A DNA stretch of 44,951 nucleotides from a bacterium (GTDB lineage Bacteria; Hydrothermota; UBA3073; JACQXS01): contig JAUVIV010000007.1 in NCBI GenBank assembly GCA_030592575.1, positions 1-44,951 of the forward strand, in the 5' to 3' direction. The stretch's first letter is position 1. Each line of letters opens with the position of its first letter. Shown here in pieces: positions 1 to 44,951 of this stretch. The notes beneath the pieces are model-generated. The model had not been told where the DNA came from. It did no database searches and saw nothing but the letters and a program-made list of their open reading frames with translations. The position numbers were made by a program, and so were the translations under genes.

Positions 1-193
1 ATTGATATTCTGAAAAATTGAATATCCTGATAGTTTCAGGATTTAAGCAGTATTTTCTTATTGCTATTTTTAGCTTATTGATACTTCCACGACTTGTAAT
101 TGAGCTACCACTACACCCGCCTCGCTTAAAATCAATGAACCAATGCCCATGTATAAGATTCACACCTGCGTATAATCCTATATCTTTCTTCAT
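1..193 (-). CDS. Partial copy of the 112-aa hypothetical early protein (N-terminal part)
   Basis: The ATG is at 193 with a strong ribosome binding site (AGAGGAG) eight bases upstream. The frame runs off the left edge of the window. It encodes the first 64 or so residues of the protein found complete at 44583..44921. The only protein-level differences are in the Gly/Ser stretch after residue 24, where this copy is three Ser codons shorter and has a Lys where the other has an Arg. On a circular molecule these would be one gene seen twice. The coding frame is preserved between copies despite nucleotide differences, which supports real translation. Function is unknown. Confidence 0.75.
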   Translation of the reverse strand, partial: MKKDIGLYAGVNLIHGHWFIDFKRGGCSGSSITSRGSINKLKIAIRKYCLNPETIRIFNFSEYQ

Positions 194-223
194 TATCTGC
201 TCCTCTAATTTCCTTCCAATATA
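1..223. repeat. Left copy of imperfect terminal direct repeat
   Basis: Bases 1..223 match 44720..44951 almost perfectly. The differences are three substitutions and a 9-bp indel made of three CTA units near base 105. The match stops exactly at the right edge of the window. This is what an end-overlapping assembly of a circular or terminally redundant phage genome would look like. The mismatches indicate that the two ends come from non-identical molecules. Confidence 0.85.
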
Positions 224-246
224 CAAAATAAAAAGTGTTTTGTCAA
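218..246 (-). promoter_or_regulatory. Leftward early promoter (TTGACA-17-TATATT)
   Basis: On the minus strand TTGACA (246..241) is followed after 17 bp by TATATT (223..218). The transcript would start near 211 and carry the leader AAATTAGAGGAG just before the ATG at 193. Across the circular junction this promoter would serve the operon 44921..42219. The right terminal copy ends inside this -10 box, so the full promoter is visible only here. It has the same core as the promoters at 502 and 6235. Confidence 0.8.
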
Positions 247-380: not shown

Positions 381-470
381 TAAGGGATGTTTCTGAGATA
401 TTTTTATGTTCACTAAGGGATGTTTCTGAGATATTTTATGTTCACTAAGGGATGTTTCTGAGATATTTTT
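381..470. repeat. Three ~32-bp direct repeats upstream of the primase promoter
   Basis: Three near-identical units begin at 381, 414 and 446, each starting TAAGGGATGTTTCTGAGATA followed by a T-run. Units one and two also share the ATGTTCAC tail. Spacing is 33 and 32 bp, about three helical turns, so a bound protein would sit on one DNA face. The tract ends about 30 bp before the -35 box of the primase promoter. Related units occur at 41382 and 41409 (19 of 25 positions identical). They are likely operator or iteron sites for a phage DNA-binding protein; which protein is unknown. Confidence 0.8.
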
Positions 471-501
471 ATGCCTATAAGCAATAAATAGAATTTTTTA
501 C

Positions 502-530: not shown

Positions 531-560
531 GCCCGAATTAGAGGTGAAGAGGGATGGTTG

Positions 561-1676
561 ATGGATATTAGAACTCGCAATAAGAGAATCAAATTTTTGA
601 ATATGGTAGCTAACTACTATCATTCAAAAGTATCTCATCCATTAGCTCAGAAATACTTAGCAAAAAGAAAAATATCACCTGAAATGGTCAATAAGTTTAA
701 TATAGGATTTGCATTAGGAAGTTATACAGATATGGGAATACTCACAGCTCTTGATAATATTGCTCATGCCGAACATCTTGGATTAGTAATGACATCGACA
801 AAACCGGAACAAGCAGGTCGGAAATATCCATATTTTAGAAATAGGATTATCTTCCCACTCAATGAAGTAGGTGGTAACACTTTAGGTTTCATGGGTAGGG
901 ATATACTTAGTCGAAGTAAAATAAAATATCTCAACTCAAAAGAATCGGATATTTTTCAAAAAAACCTTATTTTATATGGACATCAACAATCTTATAAAAG
1001 AATAAGACAAAATAGATATGTTATACTTGTTGAAGGAAATATTGACACAATCCGCACTTATGAGAGAGGTTATCCTGTATTAGGCTTATCGAGTTGCAAT
1101 CTCAGTGAAGGTCAGATTATAATTATAGGAGCTACATATCCCAATGTATTTTTGATGATGGATGGAGATAAAGCCGGTAGAGAGGGAGCAATTAGAATCA
1201 CAACAACATATAGAGACATGAATAAAACTACAAGGAAGGTAAGGCTACCACGACTCATTGAATTGCCTGACGGATATGATCCTGACAAATTCTTCTTAAA
1301 ATATCCTGAACCCGAAGATTATATAAATGAAAAAATGACTACTGACACACTTGCTGAGTTTGGAAGAAATAAACGGACATATTTGCCACTTACGAGAAAA
1401 CTCAGAAATTACAATTTTGATACAGCTTCGGTTAAGAATAGTCATAATATTTTAGATGTAATAGGAAGACGGGTTCAGATTATGCGAGCCGGCTCGAATT
1501 ATATTTGCAAATGCCCATTTCACGATGAGAGGACGCCTTCTTTTGTCATATCTGAGTCGAAACAGATTTTTAGATGTTTTGGGTGTGGTATTTCGGGGGA
1601 TGTATATGATTTTCTTATGAAGTTTCACGAGATTGGATTTCGTGATGCTTTAGCAATGTTATCGCAAGAGGAATAA
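561..1676 (+). CDS. DnaG-type primase with C-terminal zinc-finger (permuted domain order)
   Basis: Makes RNA primers for phage replication. The ATG at 561 has GAGGG seven bases upstream and follows the promoter; the product is 371 aa. Residues ~1-145 resemble the DnaG catalytic N-subdomain (RIIFPL at 94-99, KYLNSKESDIF at 122-132). The Toprim part has EGNID (158-162), the metal-binding DGDKAG (201-206) and DPDKF (240-244). The CHC2 zinc-binding domain, normally at the DnaG N-terminus, lies at ~293-368: C318, H321, C339, C342, with TPSF, CFGCG and GD typical of the family. No helicase-binding domain is present. It is the first gene of the rightward operon, fitting an early replication role. 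Family assignment is strong; the order is clear from the sequence, but its effect on priming is unknown. Confidence 0.9.
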   Translation: MDIRTRNKRIKFLNMVANYYHSKVSHPLAQKYLAKRKISPEMVNKFNIGFALGSYTDMGILTALDNIAHAEHLGLVMTSTKPEQAGRKYPYFRNRIIFPLNEVGGNTLGFMGRDILSRSKIKYLNSKESDIFQKNLILYGHQQSYKRIRQNRYVILVEGNIDTIRTYERGYPVLGLSSCNLSEGQIIIIGATYPNVFLMMDGDKAGREGAIRITTTYRDMNKTTRKVRLPRLIELPDGYDPDKFFLKYPEPEDYINEKMTTDTLAEFGRNKRTYLPLTRKLRNYNFDTASVKNSHNILDVIGRRVQIMRAGSNYICKCPFHDERTPSFVISESKQIFRCFGCGISGDVYDFLMKFHEIGFRDALAMLSQEE

Positions 1677-6263: not shown

Positions 6264-6290
6264 GGGTTAAAATAAATTAGAGGTGACAAA

Positions 6291-7199
6291 ATGGTTGAAC
6301 TACGAGAAATAACTAATAAAGAGTATCAATCCGACGAGGACTACGAGAGATGCACAGGGCTAAAACTCGCTTATAAAAGTATGTTTCAGTACTATGAGTA
6401 CAAAAAGGGATTAACCAAAGATACTCCTGCTCTTAGTTTCGGGAGATTGTATCATACAGTTTTAGAAGGGCAGGATAAATTCTCTTCTGAATTTGCTGTA
6501 ATAGATAAACTTGCAAGACCCGAACCGGACAAAACAATGGCTTCTAAAATGAATAAAGAGTGGTTGGAAGTAATCACATTAAGAGCAGAGGCAGACGGTA
6601 AGCAAGTTTGCACTATGGAAGACTACGAAAAGGCTGTAAAAATGAGAGATGTTCTGAATCTATTCGTAGCTAAAAACGAGTCGAATGAGAAATTTTCTGT
6701 ATTCAATAATATTGTTGAAACAGGAGTTTCGGAAATGAGCTTATTTTGTGACGATTATCTTGGCGTAAAAGTTAAGTGCAGATCAGATTTGACACTTCCT
6801 TATATGTTAGTGGACTATAAATCGGTAGCTGATGCTTCTCAACACAAAATAGAGCTTGAAATGCTAAAATGGGGATGGGATATTCAGGTAGCATTATATT
6901 CTGATTTGCATTGGATGTTCCAAAGTAAAACAAACGACATTCCTGAGAGTATTAGAATGCCATTTTACCTTACTTGTCAAGAAAAGAAAGAGCCATACGA
7001 TTTTAATTTTTACAATGCTTCGGATTTTTACTACACAGGTAAGGTAAGGTTATTGAAGGCTATTGCGAATATCAAAGCTGGGGCATCAAGGGGATATTGG
7101 GGGGATATTCCTAAAGGCGAACTTGGAGTAAAACTAAAAGTTCCTAAATGGGCTTATGAGAAACTTAACTTTGGAGGAGATATTGATGAAACTGAATAA
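6291..7199 (+). CDS. RecE/ExoVIII-like PD-(D/E)XK exonuclease
   Basis: 302 aa. Motifs of the DUF3799/ExoVIII family are visible: GRLYHT with H55, KCRSD with D166, VDYKS with D175 and K177, and the helix WGWDIQVALYSD with Q199 and Y203. These make up the PD-(D/E)XK active site (H-D-DxK-QxxxY). Such enzymes resect 5' ends of dsDNA to give 3' tails for annealing. No annealase was recognised, but SSB and an SMC/RecF-like ATPase are close by. It has its own promoter and SD (AGAGGTGAC). The end overlaps the next gene by 14 bp, implying coupled translation. Confidence 0.85.
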   Translation: MVELREITNKEYQSDEDYERCTGLKLAYKSMFQYYEYKKGLTKDTPALSFGRLYHTVLEGQDKFSSEFAVIDKLARPEPDKTMASKMNKEWLEVITLRAEADGKQVCTMEDYEKAVKMRDVLNLFVAKNESNEKFSVFNNIVETGVSEMSLFCDDYLGVKVKCRSDLTLPYMLVDYKSVADASQHKIELEMLKWGWDIQVALYSDLHWMFQSKTNDIPESIRMPFYLTCQEKKEPYDFNFYNASDFYYTGKVRLLKAIANIKAGASRGYWGDIPKGELGVKLKVPKWAYEKLNFGGDIDETE

Positions 7200-38185: not shown

Positions 38186-38700
38186 TACGACCTCTCAATT
38201 ACATTACGAAACGGACATAACCATCCACTCTTGCCCATATACATTCCCGCAATAGGAACAATAGCCACCACAGATTCCGAACTCGATCCGATATATTCAA
38301 TTCTTTCACTAATCTCACCAACCTTGTTCTCCATTTCAGCAATACCGCTCAATTCCCCACCTATAGGAACAGCGAGTGATCCACCATCGAGAACATAAGC
38401 AGAATATTCGCAAGTAGCGTTCTTTATCATTGTAGGTATTTCCACAGTCGCAGGAGGAGCTTCCGAAGTCGGCATGTATCTCGGAAATTCTGTTGTTTGA
38501 ATATCTCCGGCAAGTTTTCCTCCTATAAAGCAATAATACGAGTCAATAAATGCCGTAGCTTCAACTATCGCACCCTGAATTTCATCATCGGTTTTCGCTG
38601 TTGGTTTATTCCTATTAAGGAAATACTGCTTGTAATAAGGAACATCTACATAAGCGTTGGCATCCGGCACTGTCCCCGTATTATCTTGCAGTATGAACAT
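38185..38700 (-). CDS. Head-tail connector (gp6/DnaT-like fold)
   Basis: 171 aa. The N-terminal ANAYVDVPYYKQYFLNRN and EIQGAIVEATAFIDSYYCFIGGKLAGD match the phage family annotated as 'DnaT-like ssDNA-binding', which by location and fold is a gp6-type adaptor under the portal. The final W and Cys (GWLCPFRNVI) are common. SD GGGGAGG; overlaps the previous small gene by 20 bp. It sits at the head of the late operon, far from portal, which is at 21-22 kb. Confidence 0.78.
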   Translation of the reverse strand: MFILQDNTGTVPDANAYVDVPYYKQYFLNRNKPTAKTDDEIQGAIVEATAFIDSYYCFIGGKLAGDIQTTEFPRYMPTSEAPPATVEIPTMIKNATCEYSAYVLDGGSLAVPIGGELSGIAEMENKVGEISERIEYIGSSSESVVAIVPIAGMYMGKSGWLCPFRNVIERS

Positions 38701-38911
38701 TTTCGTCCTCCCCTATTTTTAAGGTGTCCTCTATTGTTGTTTCTATTACAGGCTCTACCGTTAAACTATCTGAAACCTCGACAGAATCAGATAAAACAAT
38801 CGGTTGAACAACCTCTATGGTGTTATTTCTTATAAGGGGAGTAATGATCCCATGCGTAGCAATTATCAAAAAAACCGTGAATAATAAGAGTCGTATAAGT
38901 GAGTCTTTCAT
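38681..38911 (-). CDS. Small membrane-anchored protein (76 aa)
   Basis: A hydrophobic segment (~4-27, LIRLLLFTVFLIIATHGIITPL) is followed by an acidic, Val/Ser-rich tail of about 45 residues. The N-in, C-out layout fits an inner-membrane anchor with a periplasmic tail, as in a spanin or an envelope-modifying protein. It is the first late gene, driven by the promoter at 38936. SD GGAGG. Function unknown. Confidence 0.65.
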   Translation of the reverse strand: MKDSLIRLLLFTVFLIIATHGIITPLIRNNTIEVVQPIVLSDSVEVSDSLTVEPVIETTIEDTLKIGEDENVHTAR

Positions 38912-38935: not shown

Positions 38936-38965
38936 AATATACATATTTTAACAACCCGAAGTCAA
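38936..38965 (-). promoter_or_regulatory. Late operon promoter
   Basis: Minus-strand TTGACT (38965..38960), 18 bp, TATATT (38941..38936). Leader of ~20 nt with SD GGAGG before the ATG at 38911. It faces away from the promoter at 38977 and their -35 boxes are only 11 bp apart, so a regulator or polymerase on one side could affect the other. Confidence 0.75.
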
Positions 38966-38976
38966 GTATTTTTTTC

Positions 38977-39005
38977 TTGACTTTTAAGAAATGTTGTCGT
39001 ATATT
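38977..39005 (+). promoter_or_regulatory. Promoter of the predicted small RNA
   Basis: TTGACT (38977..38982), 17 bp, TATATT (39000..39005). It is divergent from the late promoter. There is no gene on the plus strand downstream; a strong terminator comes after ~70 nt. Confidence 0.75.
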
Positions 39006-39011
39006 ATCATC

Positions 39012-39082
39012 ACAACCAAAATTCCTCTAATTTTTTGATTGTTTTAGTTCCCGTGTGGCAATTCTGTACGGGGACTTTTTTT
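39012..39082 (+). ncRNA. Predicted small RNA with anti-Shine-Dalgarno segment
   Basis: A transcript of about 70 nt is framed by the promoter at 38977 and a terminator. Its 5' part is unstructured and holds TTCCTCTAATTTTTT (39022..39036). The complement of this contains AAATTAGAGGA, which matches leader RNA of the early transcripts at 201..211 (11 nt, minus), 6274..6283 (10 nt) and 536..544 (9 nt). It contains no start codon with a useful reading frame. I infer a trans-acting antisense RNA that covers early ribosome binding sites; no homologue is known to me. A functionless divergent transcript is the alternative. Confidence 0.6.
39046..39082 (+). terminator. Rho-independent terminator of the small RNA
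   Basis: AGTTCCCGT (39046..39054) pairs with ACGGGGACT (39068..39076), nine pairs including one G-U, around a 13-base loop. Seven T follow (39076..39082). On the other strand there is no T-run, so it acts only on the plus strand. Confidence 0.85.
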
Positions 39083-39287: not shown

Positions 39288-39500
<213 letters not shown>

Positions 39501-39590: not shown

Positions 39591-39619
39591 AAAAAAAAGC
39601 CCGCTATCGAAACGGGCTT
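39591..39619 (-). terminator. Rho-independent terminator of the 39.6-41.1 kb operon
   Basis: Minus-strand AAGCCCG (39619..39613) pairs with CGGGCTT (39603..39597), then a run of eight T. It lies 16 bp after the stop at 39635. Confidence 0.85.
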
Positions 39620-39865: not shown

Positions 39866-40767
39866 TTGCACCTCCAGCCAGCCAATTTTGCAATTCGTTC
39901 AATTTCTGAACGGTCGATATTGTGACAGCCAATCTGTAGATGATTACTATTATACGACATACGATAACCGTCATACTCACTGCAAGACTCTACACGCTGC
40001 ATGATGCAGTATAGACGCTTAGCTTTGTCAATGTCCATATCCGAGCCTTTTGATGTTTCTATCTGTTGCTTATTTGCAGATATACGCAAATATACTTTTC
40101 TATCATAGATTTGTCTTGAGAGATAATTTCTCGTATTAGCTATCCAGTTTTGAATATTTTGCGCTTCATTAGCTATATATTGTTTTTTTTCAGTTTGTAG
40201 CTTTCTAATCTTTGCTTGTTTCAACTTATTTTCAGTTTGCACTATATAAGCTAACAATTCTGTTGACACAATATGACTACTCAATATGTTTTTCTGCTCT
40301 TTGCTCAATCGACTACAATGAAATAATGATCTATATTGCAAGATTGTTAATCTGAAGCGTTCTGCTTCTGCAAGATAATATCGCTTTCTTGTTCTTGCCT
40401 TGCTTGCTTTGAACAAATTGTCTCTAAGTTGAGCGAAAAAATACTTAATATTAGCTTCGCGATTTGTGCTCGCATCAGGTACATCGAATATAATGTAGTG
40501 AGGCGGTATAGCTGATCGCACAGCTTGTTTGTGTCTTACTGTTGTATTACTATAATTGTAGCAGTTGAAAAACAAAATATCTTTTTTGCCTTGTTTGTCG
40601 CTTTTCAGTTTTTCTGCTATACAATAATGCGTTCCATAACTGAAAATTCGATCATTGTGAAATAGCATACTTCTGTTATAAGTCTGAACATTACACCGTT
40701 CAGTTTGATTGTAGAAAAAAGCGTGCGAAAGCTCGTTGTAGTTACGATATAGTTTTTTCTCTTTCAT
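39862..40767 (-). CDS. Hypothetical basic protein (301 aa)
   Basis: Function unknown. The N-terminal third has FHNDRIFSYGTHYCIAEKL and NTTVRHKQAVRSAIP, a pair of segments I recall from many uncharacterised phage proteins ('SYGTHYPIA ... T.KHQ.AVR'). The middle is strongly basic and helical (KASKARTRKRYYLAEAERFRL), and the end has scattered Cys and His (C-x-YDGYRMSYNSNHLQIGCHNI). This fits a nucleic-acid-binding protein. The ATG overlaps the stop of the preceding gene; SD AAGGTGG. Confidence 0.65.
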   Translation of the reverse strand: MKEKKLYRNYNELSHAFFYNQTERCNVQTYNRSMLFHNDRIFSYGTHYCIAEKLKSDKQGKKDILFFNCYNYSNTTVRHKQAVRSAIPPHYIIFDVPDASTNREANIKYFFAQLRDNLFKASKARTRKRYYLAEAERFRLTILQYRSLFHCSRLSKEQKNILSSHIVSTELLAYIVQTENKLKQAKIRKLQTEKKQYIANEAQNIQNWIANTRNYLSRQIYDRKVYLRISANKQQIETSKGSDMDIDKAKRLYCIMQRVESCSEYDGYRMSYNSNHLQIGCHNIDRSEIERIAKLAGWRCK

Positions 40768-41099
40768 TATACACCACCTTGCATAACGATAATTTCACAA
40801 TCGAAATCTAATTTTCTCATTTCATTGTAACTCTTGACTATTTCAGTAGAAAAACGCTTTATTTCTGCTTTTATTTCCGAAAGTTTTGATCTTACATGAA
40901 TTTTCAGATTAACATCTTGTAACTCAACACCATTGCAAAACAAATATTTCCCCTTCGTTGTTATATCGCATTCTGAACTGCCGATCACTTCAATTGCAAT
41001 TTGCCTTGCAAAATACAAAATATCTGTACTATATGTATTGAGATAATTAATATCATGTCCATTAACTGTCATTTTGTAGTTTTTTCTTGTGATTTTCAT
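40767..41099 (-). CDS. Hypothetical protein (110 aa)
   Basis: Not recognised. A beta-rich N-terminal half (YKMTVNGHDINYLNTYSTDIL) is followed by a charged helix (SKLSEIKAEIKRFSTEIVKSYNEM). The leader carries AATAGAGGA, a one-mismatch relative of the early-leader motif, at its SD. Driven by the promoter at 41216 and co-transcribed with the next two genes. Confidence 0.65.
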   Translation of the reverse strand: MKITRKNYKMTVNGHDINYLNTYSTDILYFARQIAIEVIGSSECDITTKGKYLFCNGVELQDVNLKIHVRSKLSEIKAEIKRFSTEIVKSYNEMRKLDFDCEIIVMQGGV

Positions 41100-41215
41100 T
41101 TTGTCCTCTATTTTTTTGTTTGATTGTTGTTATTATTATTCAAGCACGATTTGTAGCTAATTAATCGAGGGCGGGCTTTTATTTCTTTTCATTTTCAATT
41201 CTCCATTTTTCCTGT

Positions 41216-41381: not shown

Positions 41382-41433
41382 TAAGGGATATTCTCCGGAT
41401 ATTTTTTCTAAGGGACATTCTCCGGATATTTTT
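41382..41433. repeat. Two copies of the control-region repeat next to a promoter
   Basis: Units at 41382 and 41409 read TAAGGGA(T/C)ATTCTCCGGATA then T-run. Their 27-bp spacing differs from the 32-33 bp at 381..470, but the flanks (TAAGGGAT, GATATTTTT) are the same. Each holds a direct repeat of GGATATT-like bases around CTCC. The second unit runs into the -35 box of the promoter at 41433. Confidence 0.75.
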
Positions 41434-41460
41434 TGACAAAAATTATACAAAACATATAAA
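41433..41460 (+). promoter_or_regulatory. Rightward promoter in the non-coding locus
   Basis: TTGACA (41433..41438), 16 bp, TATAAA (41455..41460). The repeats at 41382..41433 abut its -35 box, so it is probably regulated. It would transcribe into the palindromic DNA, where no protein gene is seen; the product may be a structured RNA or an origin-activating transcript. Confidence 0.6.
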
Positions 41461-42942: not shown

Positions 42943-43668
42943 TTATAAGTATTCCGGTTCGGTTGGAATTTTTTGTTTTAGTTCTTTCAGGAACATTTCC
43001 TTATCAACCTTGTCGAACTTTAGGTTATTTTCGATGATAGCCTTGTAGAAATACTCAATTACGCAGTCGCTATCATATTCTTTAAAACTAATATAACAAC
43101 TATCATAATTTTCATAAACATATTCCTCTCCGGTAAAATTCACTCTACACTCAAGAGGTGAATCAAAAAAATAATTGTGAAACAGTTTCTTATAAGTTTT
43201 AATGTCGAACTCACTGCCGGTAACTTTCTTAAATTCCTTTGTATTAACTAAGATTTTCGCATAATCACCTTGCGAGTAACCGTATATTTTAACAACTTCA
43301 TAATTGATCTCATAATTGATTTTGAAGTCATCAAACATCTCTTGTAATTCGTTATTACTAAGCTCTTCATCGAAAATGAGTTCGGTTAGCTGATATTGAG
43401 TATAATTGATTAAGCCGGTATGTGAATAATATCCATCTGTTAGTACGATAAGTAGTTTTTTTAACTTTTTGATCTGATGGGGTAATATTGTGAAATAGCC
43501 ACTTTGACAATAATCACCGGAAAGACTATTGCAATTAGTGTAAATCCAATAATCTGATTTCTTACCCCGTACAAAATTATCATCAAAATTTATTTGACTA
43601 AGAAATGAGTTATAATTGATAGATATTCTCATTTCACGAATTGCAGTAGTAAGCTCTCTTTTATCCAT
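42943..43668 (-). CDS. Hypothetical protein with GYSQGDYA motif (241 aa)
   Basis: ATG 43668 follows AAGGAG at six bases. The segment VVKIYGYSQGDYAKILV is one I recall from many phage proteins of unknown function ('YGYSQGDYA'). The C-terminal third has a Cys-x-YISFKEYDSDCVIEYF stretch. Acidic, mixed alpha/beta, no catalytic motif visible. The start overlaps the stop of the Ala-rich gene. Confidence 0.65.
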   Translation of the reverse strand: MDKRELTTAIREMRISINYNSFLSQINFDDNFVRGKKSDYWIYTNCNSLSGDYCQSGYFTILPHQIKKLKKLLIVLTDGYYSHTGLINYTQYQLTELIFDEELSNNELQEMFDDFKINYEINYEVVKIYGYSQGDYAKILVNTKEFKKVTGSEFDIKTYKKLFHNYFFDSPLECRVNFTGEEYVYENYDSCYISFKEYDSDCVIEYFYKAIIENNLKFDKVDKEMFLKELKQKIPTEPEYL

Positions 43669-44293
43669 TTTCAACTCCTTCCTGATTAACTATAATATTA
43701 AGTACATCTTTTGTTAATATTTCTCTGCATATATTAGCAGTGAGTATTTGATTTTCTTTTTTTGCAGCATAAACAGCAGCAGCATCAGCAGCATAAGCAG
43801 CAGCAGCATAAGCAGCATCAGCATCAGCAGCAGTATAAACAGCAGCAGCAGCAGCATCAGTAGCAGCAGTATAAGCAGCAGCAGTAGCAGCATAAGCAGC
43901 ATCAGTATAAGCGTCAGCATAAGCATCAGCAGCAGTATAAGCAGCATCAGCAGCATCAGCAGCATCAGCATAAGCGTCAGCATAAGCATCAGCAGCAGTA
44001 TAAGCAGCATTTTTCAGTTCTTCATCGGTAGCCTTACCTTCACCGTATCTTATGGCTACTTTAACACTATTGATACTTCTTTGATCTTTCATCAAGTGAG
44101 TAATGCTTTCAACACACTTGCCTTTAGCGAATATAAGTGTTCTTTTATCTACTTTTAGTTTTGATGCTACCCACAACAACCAGTCACCTCTTTGACACTC
44201 TTTCCAAGCGTCTTCAAAAGAATGAAATTTTTTGTACCATTTTACAGCTTCTACACAAGGACGATACTTATTAATATTAAATTTTTTATCCAT
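43661..44293 (-). CDS. Ala-rich Imm-5-like protein
   Basis: 210 aa from ATG 44293 (SD AAAGGAG). The N-terminal ~95 residues (HSFEDAWKECQRGDWLLWVASKL) and KATDEELKNAA match the phage and bacterial 'putative immunity protein' (Imm-5-like) family. About 95 residues of AYADAADAADAAYTAAD-type repeats follow and then a short C-terminal helix. The family name comes from toxin immunity annotations; in a phage it might be an anti-defence or host-modifying factor, not shown. The repeat part is duplicated at the DNA level (see repeat). Confidence 0.75.
   Translation of the reverse strand: MDKKFNINKYRPCVEAVKWYKKFHSFEDAWKECQRGDWLLWVASKLKVDKRTLIFAKGKCVESITHLMKDQRSINSVKVAIRYGEGKATDEELKNAAYTAADAYADAYADAADAADAAYTAADAYADAYTDAAYAATAAAYTAATDAAAAAVYTAADADAAYAAAAYAADAAAVYAAKKENQILTANICREILTKDVLNIIVNQEGVENG
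43907..44010. repeat. In-frame 41-bp direct repeat in the Ala-rich gene
   Basis: The 41 bases 43907..43947 are repeated exactly at 43970..44010, a 63-bp period, which is 21 codons, so the frame is kept. GCAGCA/GCATCA triplets fill the DNA around it. It encodes AYADAYADA-type stretches and is expected to change length by slippage without breaking the protein. Confidence 0.85.
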
Positions 44294-44388
44294 TTTCAAC
44301 TCCTTTAATAAGTTTTAAGAACAATTCTTTTTTATTATCAATCCGTAAGGAACAAGACCCTGATTAACTATAACTTCCTGCATTTTAA

Positions 44389-44601
44389 TTATTCGTACAC
44401 TCCTTTCTTTACATCTTCTACAAACATATCTGCGACTTTCCTCATATCCTTCTTTTGTCCTTCGTAATACTCAAAGAACCAGCTTGAAACAAAAGATTTT
44501 ACCTGTATCTTTCTTGCTTTCCGAATAAACTCTTCTCCTGCGTAACACTTTCTTGCAATTTTTATAAACGGTTCTAATTCTTTTAGATAGTTCTGTTCCA
44601 T
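44389..44601 (-). CDS. Hypothetical helical protein (70 aa)
   Basis: Not recognised. It has a consensus SD (AAGGAGG) seven bases before the ATG at 44601, which lies inside the end of the upstream gene. The sequence is helical with basic and aromatic residues (KSFVSSWFFEYYEGQKKDM). The 88 bases after its stop up to the Ala-rich gene include a fragment resembling that gene's 3' end but no clear frame. Confidence 0.65.
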   Translation of the reverse strand: MEQNYLKELEPFIKIARKCYAGEEFIRKARKIQVKSFVSSWFFEYYEGQKKDMRKVADMFVEDVKKGVYE

Positions 44602-44921
44602 AATACCTCCTTACAACCTATTTTAATTAACATTTTCATATACTCCTCATTATCTAATTGCACCCTGTAACCAAAACCGTCCTCAGAATCAGTATTAACA
44701 CAACTTTCCATTTTGCTTGATTGATATTCTGAAAAATTGAATATCCTGATAGTTTCAGGATTTAAGCAGTATTTTCTTATTGCTATTTTTAGCTTATTGA
44801 TACTTCCACGACTTGTAATTGAACTACTACTACTACCACTACACCCGCCCCGCCTAAAATCAATGAACCAATGCCCATGTATAAGATTCACACCTGCGTA
44901 TAATCCTATATCTTTCTTCAT
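44583..44921 (-). CDS. Hypothetical early protein with Gly/Ser run (112 aa)
   Basis: The first gene of the leftward early operon. SD AGAGGAG. The N-terminal half (MKKDIGLYAGVNLIHGHWFIDF) and SRGSINKLKIAIRKYC are followed by a weakly acidic end; the Gly/Cys/Ser segment GCSGSSSSSITS is a flexible loop. Its N-terminal part is repeated at the left end of the window with a shorter Ser run. The function is unknown; early small phage proteins often modulate host targets. Confidence 0.7.
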   Translation of the reverse strand: MKKDIGLYAGVNLIHGHWFIDFRRGGCSGSSSSSITSRGSINKLKIAIRKYCLNPETIRIFNFSEYQSSKMESCVNTDSEDGFGYRVQLDNEEYMKMLIKIGCKEVLWNRTI

Positions 44922-44951
44922 TATCTGCTCCTCTAATTTCCTTCCAATATA
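44720..44951. repeat. Right copy of imperfect terminal direct repeat
   Basis: Corresponds to 1..223 with an added 9 bp (three CTA) and three substitutions. It ends within the -10 box of the leftward early promoter, and the remaining promoter bases are found only after base 223 of the left copy. Joining the ends would give one continuous early operon. Confidence 0.85.

Follow-up and report, generated by a model that had tools for sequence, protein, structure and literature searches.

A predicted phage small RNA matches the ribosome-binding sites of four early operons above chance and may be a brake on early genes

Antisense RNAs that block ribosome-binding sites are known from phages, namely sar of P22 and c4 of P1/P7 (PMC12197685), and the mechanism considered here thus has precedents. 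Both are short and block translation initiation of a phage mRNA, as the RNA predicted here would, and c4 uses loops to display its complementary sequences at the ribosome-binding site (PMC12197685). The length of sar is 68/69 nt, and that of the predicted RNA is ~71 nt. The difference is in the targets. Sar and c4 each have one described target, the ant mRNA, and belong to temperate-phage immunity, whereas the predicted RNA would address four separate early leaders, none of which belongs to an antirepressor (ant) gene in an immunity region.

The OOP RNA of lambda is similar in that it has its own promoter, a length of 77 nt and antisense control of a phage gene (PMC12197685), but it lies opposite cII, the gene that it controls in cis, while the RNA predicted here is intergenic and its targets are unlinked. 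VpdS (VP882) and PreS (lambda) resemble it as phage-encoded trans-acting sRNAs (PMC12197685). VpdS targets phage and host mRNAs and PreS targets the host dnaN; both are Hfq-dependent, whereas no match to Hfq was found in the 94%-complete host MAG, where an assembly gap is possible. A functional parallel is T4 RegA, a single regulator that acts at the AUG region of ~30 phage mRNAs to repress their translation initiation (PMC3014915), although RegA is a protein and the regulator proposed here is an RNA. A limited search of the open-access literature returned no account of a phage RNA directed at several of the phage's own early leaders. To our knowledge, most of the phage antisense RNAs described regulate either one immunity gene or mRNAs of the host. 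The unusual part of the present locus would be the use of one RNA for several of the phage's own early leaders.

The window (the whole analysed stretch of 44,951 nt) is an entire contig of the 2.49-Mb host MAG, whose RpoB is only ~50% identical to that of the nearest named genomes. The contig ends overlap by ~233 bp (1..233 versus 44719..44951; the two copies differ by a 9-bp indel and a few mismatches), and the phage genome, of ~44.7 kb, is accordingly circular or terminally redundant. The genes fall into three blocks. On the plus strand lie early genes for a primase, a topoisomerase-like protein, an SSB, an exonuclease VIII-like protein and a helicase. The late genes occupy the minus strand between 38911 and 15659 and encode connectors, tail, portal, TerL and amidase, and a second early block, also on the minus strand, runs from 44921 to 39635. 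The labels 'early' and 'late' were assigned from gene content alone. None of the phage proteins scanned was recognised as an integrase or a repressor. Six clear promoters adjoin transcript starts: +502, +6235, -246 and -41244 (early), -38965 (late) and +38977 (small RNA). The in-frame start of the primase is 561, not 554. In the primase (561..1676), the CHC2 zinc-finger domain is C-terminal, after the catalytic and Toprim domains, which is a permuted order. The protein matches phage records (e.g. of Porphyromonas phages) with 88–94% coverage and 34–35% identity.

The small-RNA promoter is a TTGACT-17-TATATT promoter at 38977..39005 on the plus strand, with a T7 tract upstream. The predicted non-coding RNA (39012..39082, plus strand, fold z = -3.0) would start at 39012, 7 nt past the -10 box. 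It ends in an intrinsic terminator (39046..39082, z = -3.9) with a 13-pair stem (39046..39076), a 5-nt loop and a T7 tail. The first-pass annotation had described this promoter, back-to-back with the late one, and a frameless region of ~70 nt closed by a clean terminator, and all of this was found as described: 39012..39082 contains no ATG, no SD and no gene. Moreover, no Rfam family exceeded its gathering threshold within the window. The promoter-to-terminator spacing is 40 bp. A unit of this kind (promoter of at least 10/12, terminator within 130 nt) occurs only once in the phage genome and in 0 of 40 Markov-resampled genomes. These sequence signals predict that the locus is transcribed on its own, from a dedicated promoter to a dedicated terminator.

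The divergent late promoter (TTGACT-18-TATATT, 38936..38965, minus strand) is of the same box type as the small-RNA promoter. The core T7CTTGACTTTT...TATATT was found at many sites across the genomes of the host phylum, and in most of the sites shown, TTTTTTCTTGACTTTT precedes boxes that resemble TATAAT or TATATT. In two host relatives (L028 and L029, near 1501..1539), a promoter-like core lies in a repeated element and is followed by a shared hairpin-rich sequence, which is possibly a small RNA or a mobile element of that lineage. The small-RNA promoter looks like an ordinary strong host-type sigma-70 promoter, as do the early ones. Since its core also recurs throughout the phylum, nothing marks the RNA as late. 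The earlier claim that firing of the late operon produces the RNA therefore lacks support; the sequence carries no sign of late production.

An 8-bp inverted repeat (AAGTCAAG...CTTGACTT) contains both -35 boxes, with 11 bp between them, and the two promoters could compete. Hence, the locus might be a cis element, with transcription of the RNA, or a protein at the inverted repeat, tuning the late promoter and the sequence of the RNA being irrelevant. We consider this improbable. The repeat amounts to two back-to-back -35 regions, a similar palindrome is present in an unrelated phylum genome (L031), and the seed of the RNA would be left unexplained.

This seed is UUCCUCUAAUUUUUU (39022..39036, plus strand). 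In the predicted 5' hairpin, which is weak (-3.0 kcal/mol, z -1.5) and lies 5' of the terminator hairpin, the loop exposes the anti-SD UUCCUCUAAUU. The CCUCU of the RNA is an anti-SD core because the host 16S 3' tail ends with ...GGATCACCTCCTTTCT, and for the same reason the paired leader bases include the SD. Some pairing with any leader is therefore expected by default, and the null models had to allow for it. A second block of the RNA, CAACCA (39013..39018, plus strand), pairs with TGGTTG, which is found at the start codon of gene 6291 and just before the primase start.

The contiguous matches that had been noted, of 11, 10 and 9 nt, all exist: AAATTAGAGGA at 201..211 (minus strand), AAATTAGAGG at 6274..6283 (plus strand) and AATTAGAGG at 536..544 (plus strand). 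One correction is that 201..211 and 44929..44939 are one site, duplicated by the overlap of the contig ends. The sequence AATTAGAGG occurs five times in the phage, comprising four leader sites (of which two are the same one, due to the end overlap) and the complement of the RNA itself. The pairing of the RNA with the leaders reaches beyond these 9–11 nt. At gene 41099, where a one-mismatch site had been described, there is more than that: the leader pairs with the RNA in two blocks, TAGAGGA and AACAATC, the latter with GATTGTT of the RNA.

Duplex energies including the opening costs (accessibility) were computed for the 5' part of the RNA and used to rank the leaders. The strongest predicted target is the primase leader (536..560, plus strand; promoter 502, CDS from 561) with -16.7 kcal/mol. 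It is followed by the leader of gene 41099..40767 (41104..41128, minus strand; promoter 41244) with -15.1 kcal/mol, the leader and start of the exonuclease VIII-like gene 6291 (6265..6297, plus strand; promoter 6235) with -14.9 kcal/mol, and the leader of gene 44921..44583 (44928..44939, minus strand; promoter 246, across the contig junction) with -13.2 kcal/mol. The products of genes 41099 and 44921 have unknown functions. The best four of the 54 phage leaders were thus exactly the four early-promoter-proximal ones, and the fifth (-10.1 kcal/mol) was ~3 kcal/mol behind. The first-pass annotation had asked for this calculation, and it made the targeting stronger than first claimed. The leader of the first gene of the late structural operon (38681..38911, minus strand) is not a predicted target: at -5.2 kcal/mol, it came to rank 78 of 189 leaders (54 phage leaders and 135 host SD leaders), which is no match, while the early four took ranks 1, 4, 5 and 6.

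Two of the 135 host SD leaders, which represent ~10% of the host genome, scored as well as the phage targets, and extrapolation gives tens of such leaders genome-wide. The RNA might accordingly be a broad anti-SD RNA that acts mainly on host mRNAs in a host takeover. We give this little credence, as AATTAGAGG was found in none of 201 host leaders and the early phage leaders are over-represented among the top ranks.

Is the match better than chance? The counts of contiguous matches alone, recomputed with the antisense strands of the leaders excluded from the background, are weak evidence (P about 0.003–0.08, depending on the null). For the summed duplex energy on the four early leaders, none of 3000 dinucleotide shuffles and none of 3000 GC-matched host segments were as good as the RNA, and of 381 host segments that carry CCTCT at the corresponding position, 1 was. 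With CCTCT fixed and the flanks shuffled, 2 of 6000 sequences were as good (3 of 6000 when the primase leader was dropped), but all these counts are not clean probabilities, the four-leader target set having been defined after the matches were seen. The single-target P values were 0.009–0.05 for the early leaders and 0.35 for the late leader. The best-four energy over all 54 leaders gave a milder result (P 0.018, and 0.11 among host segments containing CCTC). The partial complementarity to unlinked mRNA leaders exceeds chance, to an extent that depends on the target set.

The early leaders are, judged from their alignment, partly related (duplicated) cassettes: those of the primase and the exonuclease align over >100 nt. 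Hence, the four do not count as separate instances of selection, and the leader motif may reflect common descent and not retention for the sake of the RNA. As the leaders were held fixed, the shuffling nulls take this kinship into account.

A functionless by-product could also account for the locus. The divergent promoter would fire beside the late promoter, the terminator would prevent read-through into the convergent early-minus genes, and the match to the leaders would come from an anti-SD core embedded in AU-rich sequence, and from luck. Random segments containing an anti-SD do often pair well with leaders, the early-minus genes are closed by a terminator of their own at 39619..39597, convergent with the small-RNA unit, and the RNA body was conserved nowhere among the searches made. 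However, the by-product explanation has to accept that so few shuffles with a fixed CCTCT equal the RNA, and that the pairing extends past the SD and spares the late leader. We regard it as rather unlikely, though a serious contender.

No conserved relative of the RNA was found in any search. Scans of viral contigs with single proteins, a TerL alignment and the exact RNA pattern gave a sole relative of the phage (L002), which covers another part of the phage genome and does not include the RNA region. The pattern of the promoter plus AATTAGAGG matched 11 contigs, none of which was otherwise similar to the phage, and genome scans with TerL gave no usable relative. An origin of the RNA by inverted duplication of an early leader was considered and rejected: reverse-complement local alignment gave no similarity beyond the paired blocks, with the 41099 leader at about the 99th percentile and the other leaders within the null.

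The computation yields a promoter/terminator unit and a preferential pairing of its RNA with early leaders. Since the predicted RNA matches the ribosome-binding sites of four early operons above chance, it may be a brake on early genes. We put the probability that the locus encodes a trans-acting antisense repressor of early translation at roughly 0.5. An antisense RNA that occludes ribosome binding is the most economical functional reading, and such an RNA is what we predict. If transcribed, the RNA would present UUCCUCUAAUU in its weak 5' hairpin, with its 3' half taken up by the terminator. In the short leader of each of the four early transcripts, it would pair with the SD zone (A/UAGAGG), and in some targets the pairing would also cover the start codon or a 5' block. 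This would occlude ribosome binding and lower the translation of the early genes. Accumulation could be early, in which case the RNA would be a brake, or late, in which case it would be a shut-off. In a more far-reaching form, which we hold to be doubtful, this one small RNA would recognise the leader motif of all early transcripts and shut early translation as a block, as an RNA counterpart of T4 RegA in a host in which no Hfq was found. If true, it would be an RNA-only, genome-wide regulator of phage gene timing that works via a leader motif common to all the early operons. The prediction is direct (one seed and four leaders), and reporters in E. coli would suffice for it, without the uncultured host.

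Repeat arrays were also observed in the phage genome. A CAG-rich array (43764..44010) lies within the minus-strand gene 43661..44299, which has no Pfam match. Between the RNA and the early minus genes, a non-coding GCAA tetranucleotide array merges into a 17-bp repeat (GCAAGCAAGCAGATATG) at 39295..39498. Two unlinked non-coding arrays at 381..473 and 41382..41434 have the related units AAGGGATGTTTCTGAGATATTTT and AAGGGAYATTCTCCGGATATTTT and are possible origin or regulator sites.
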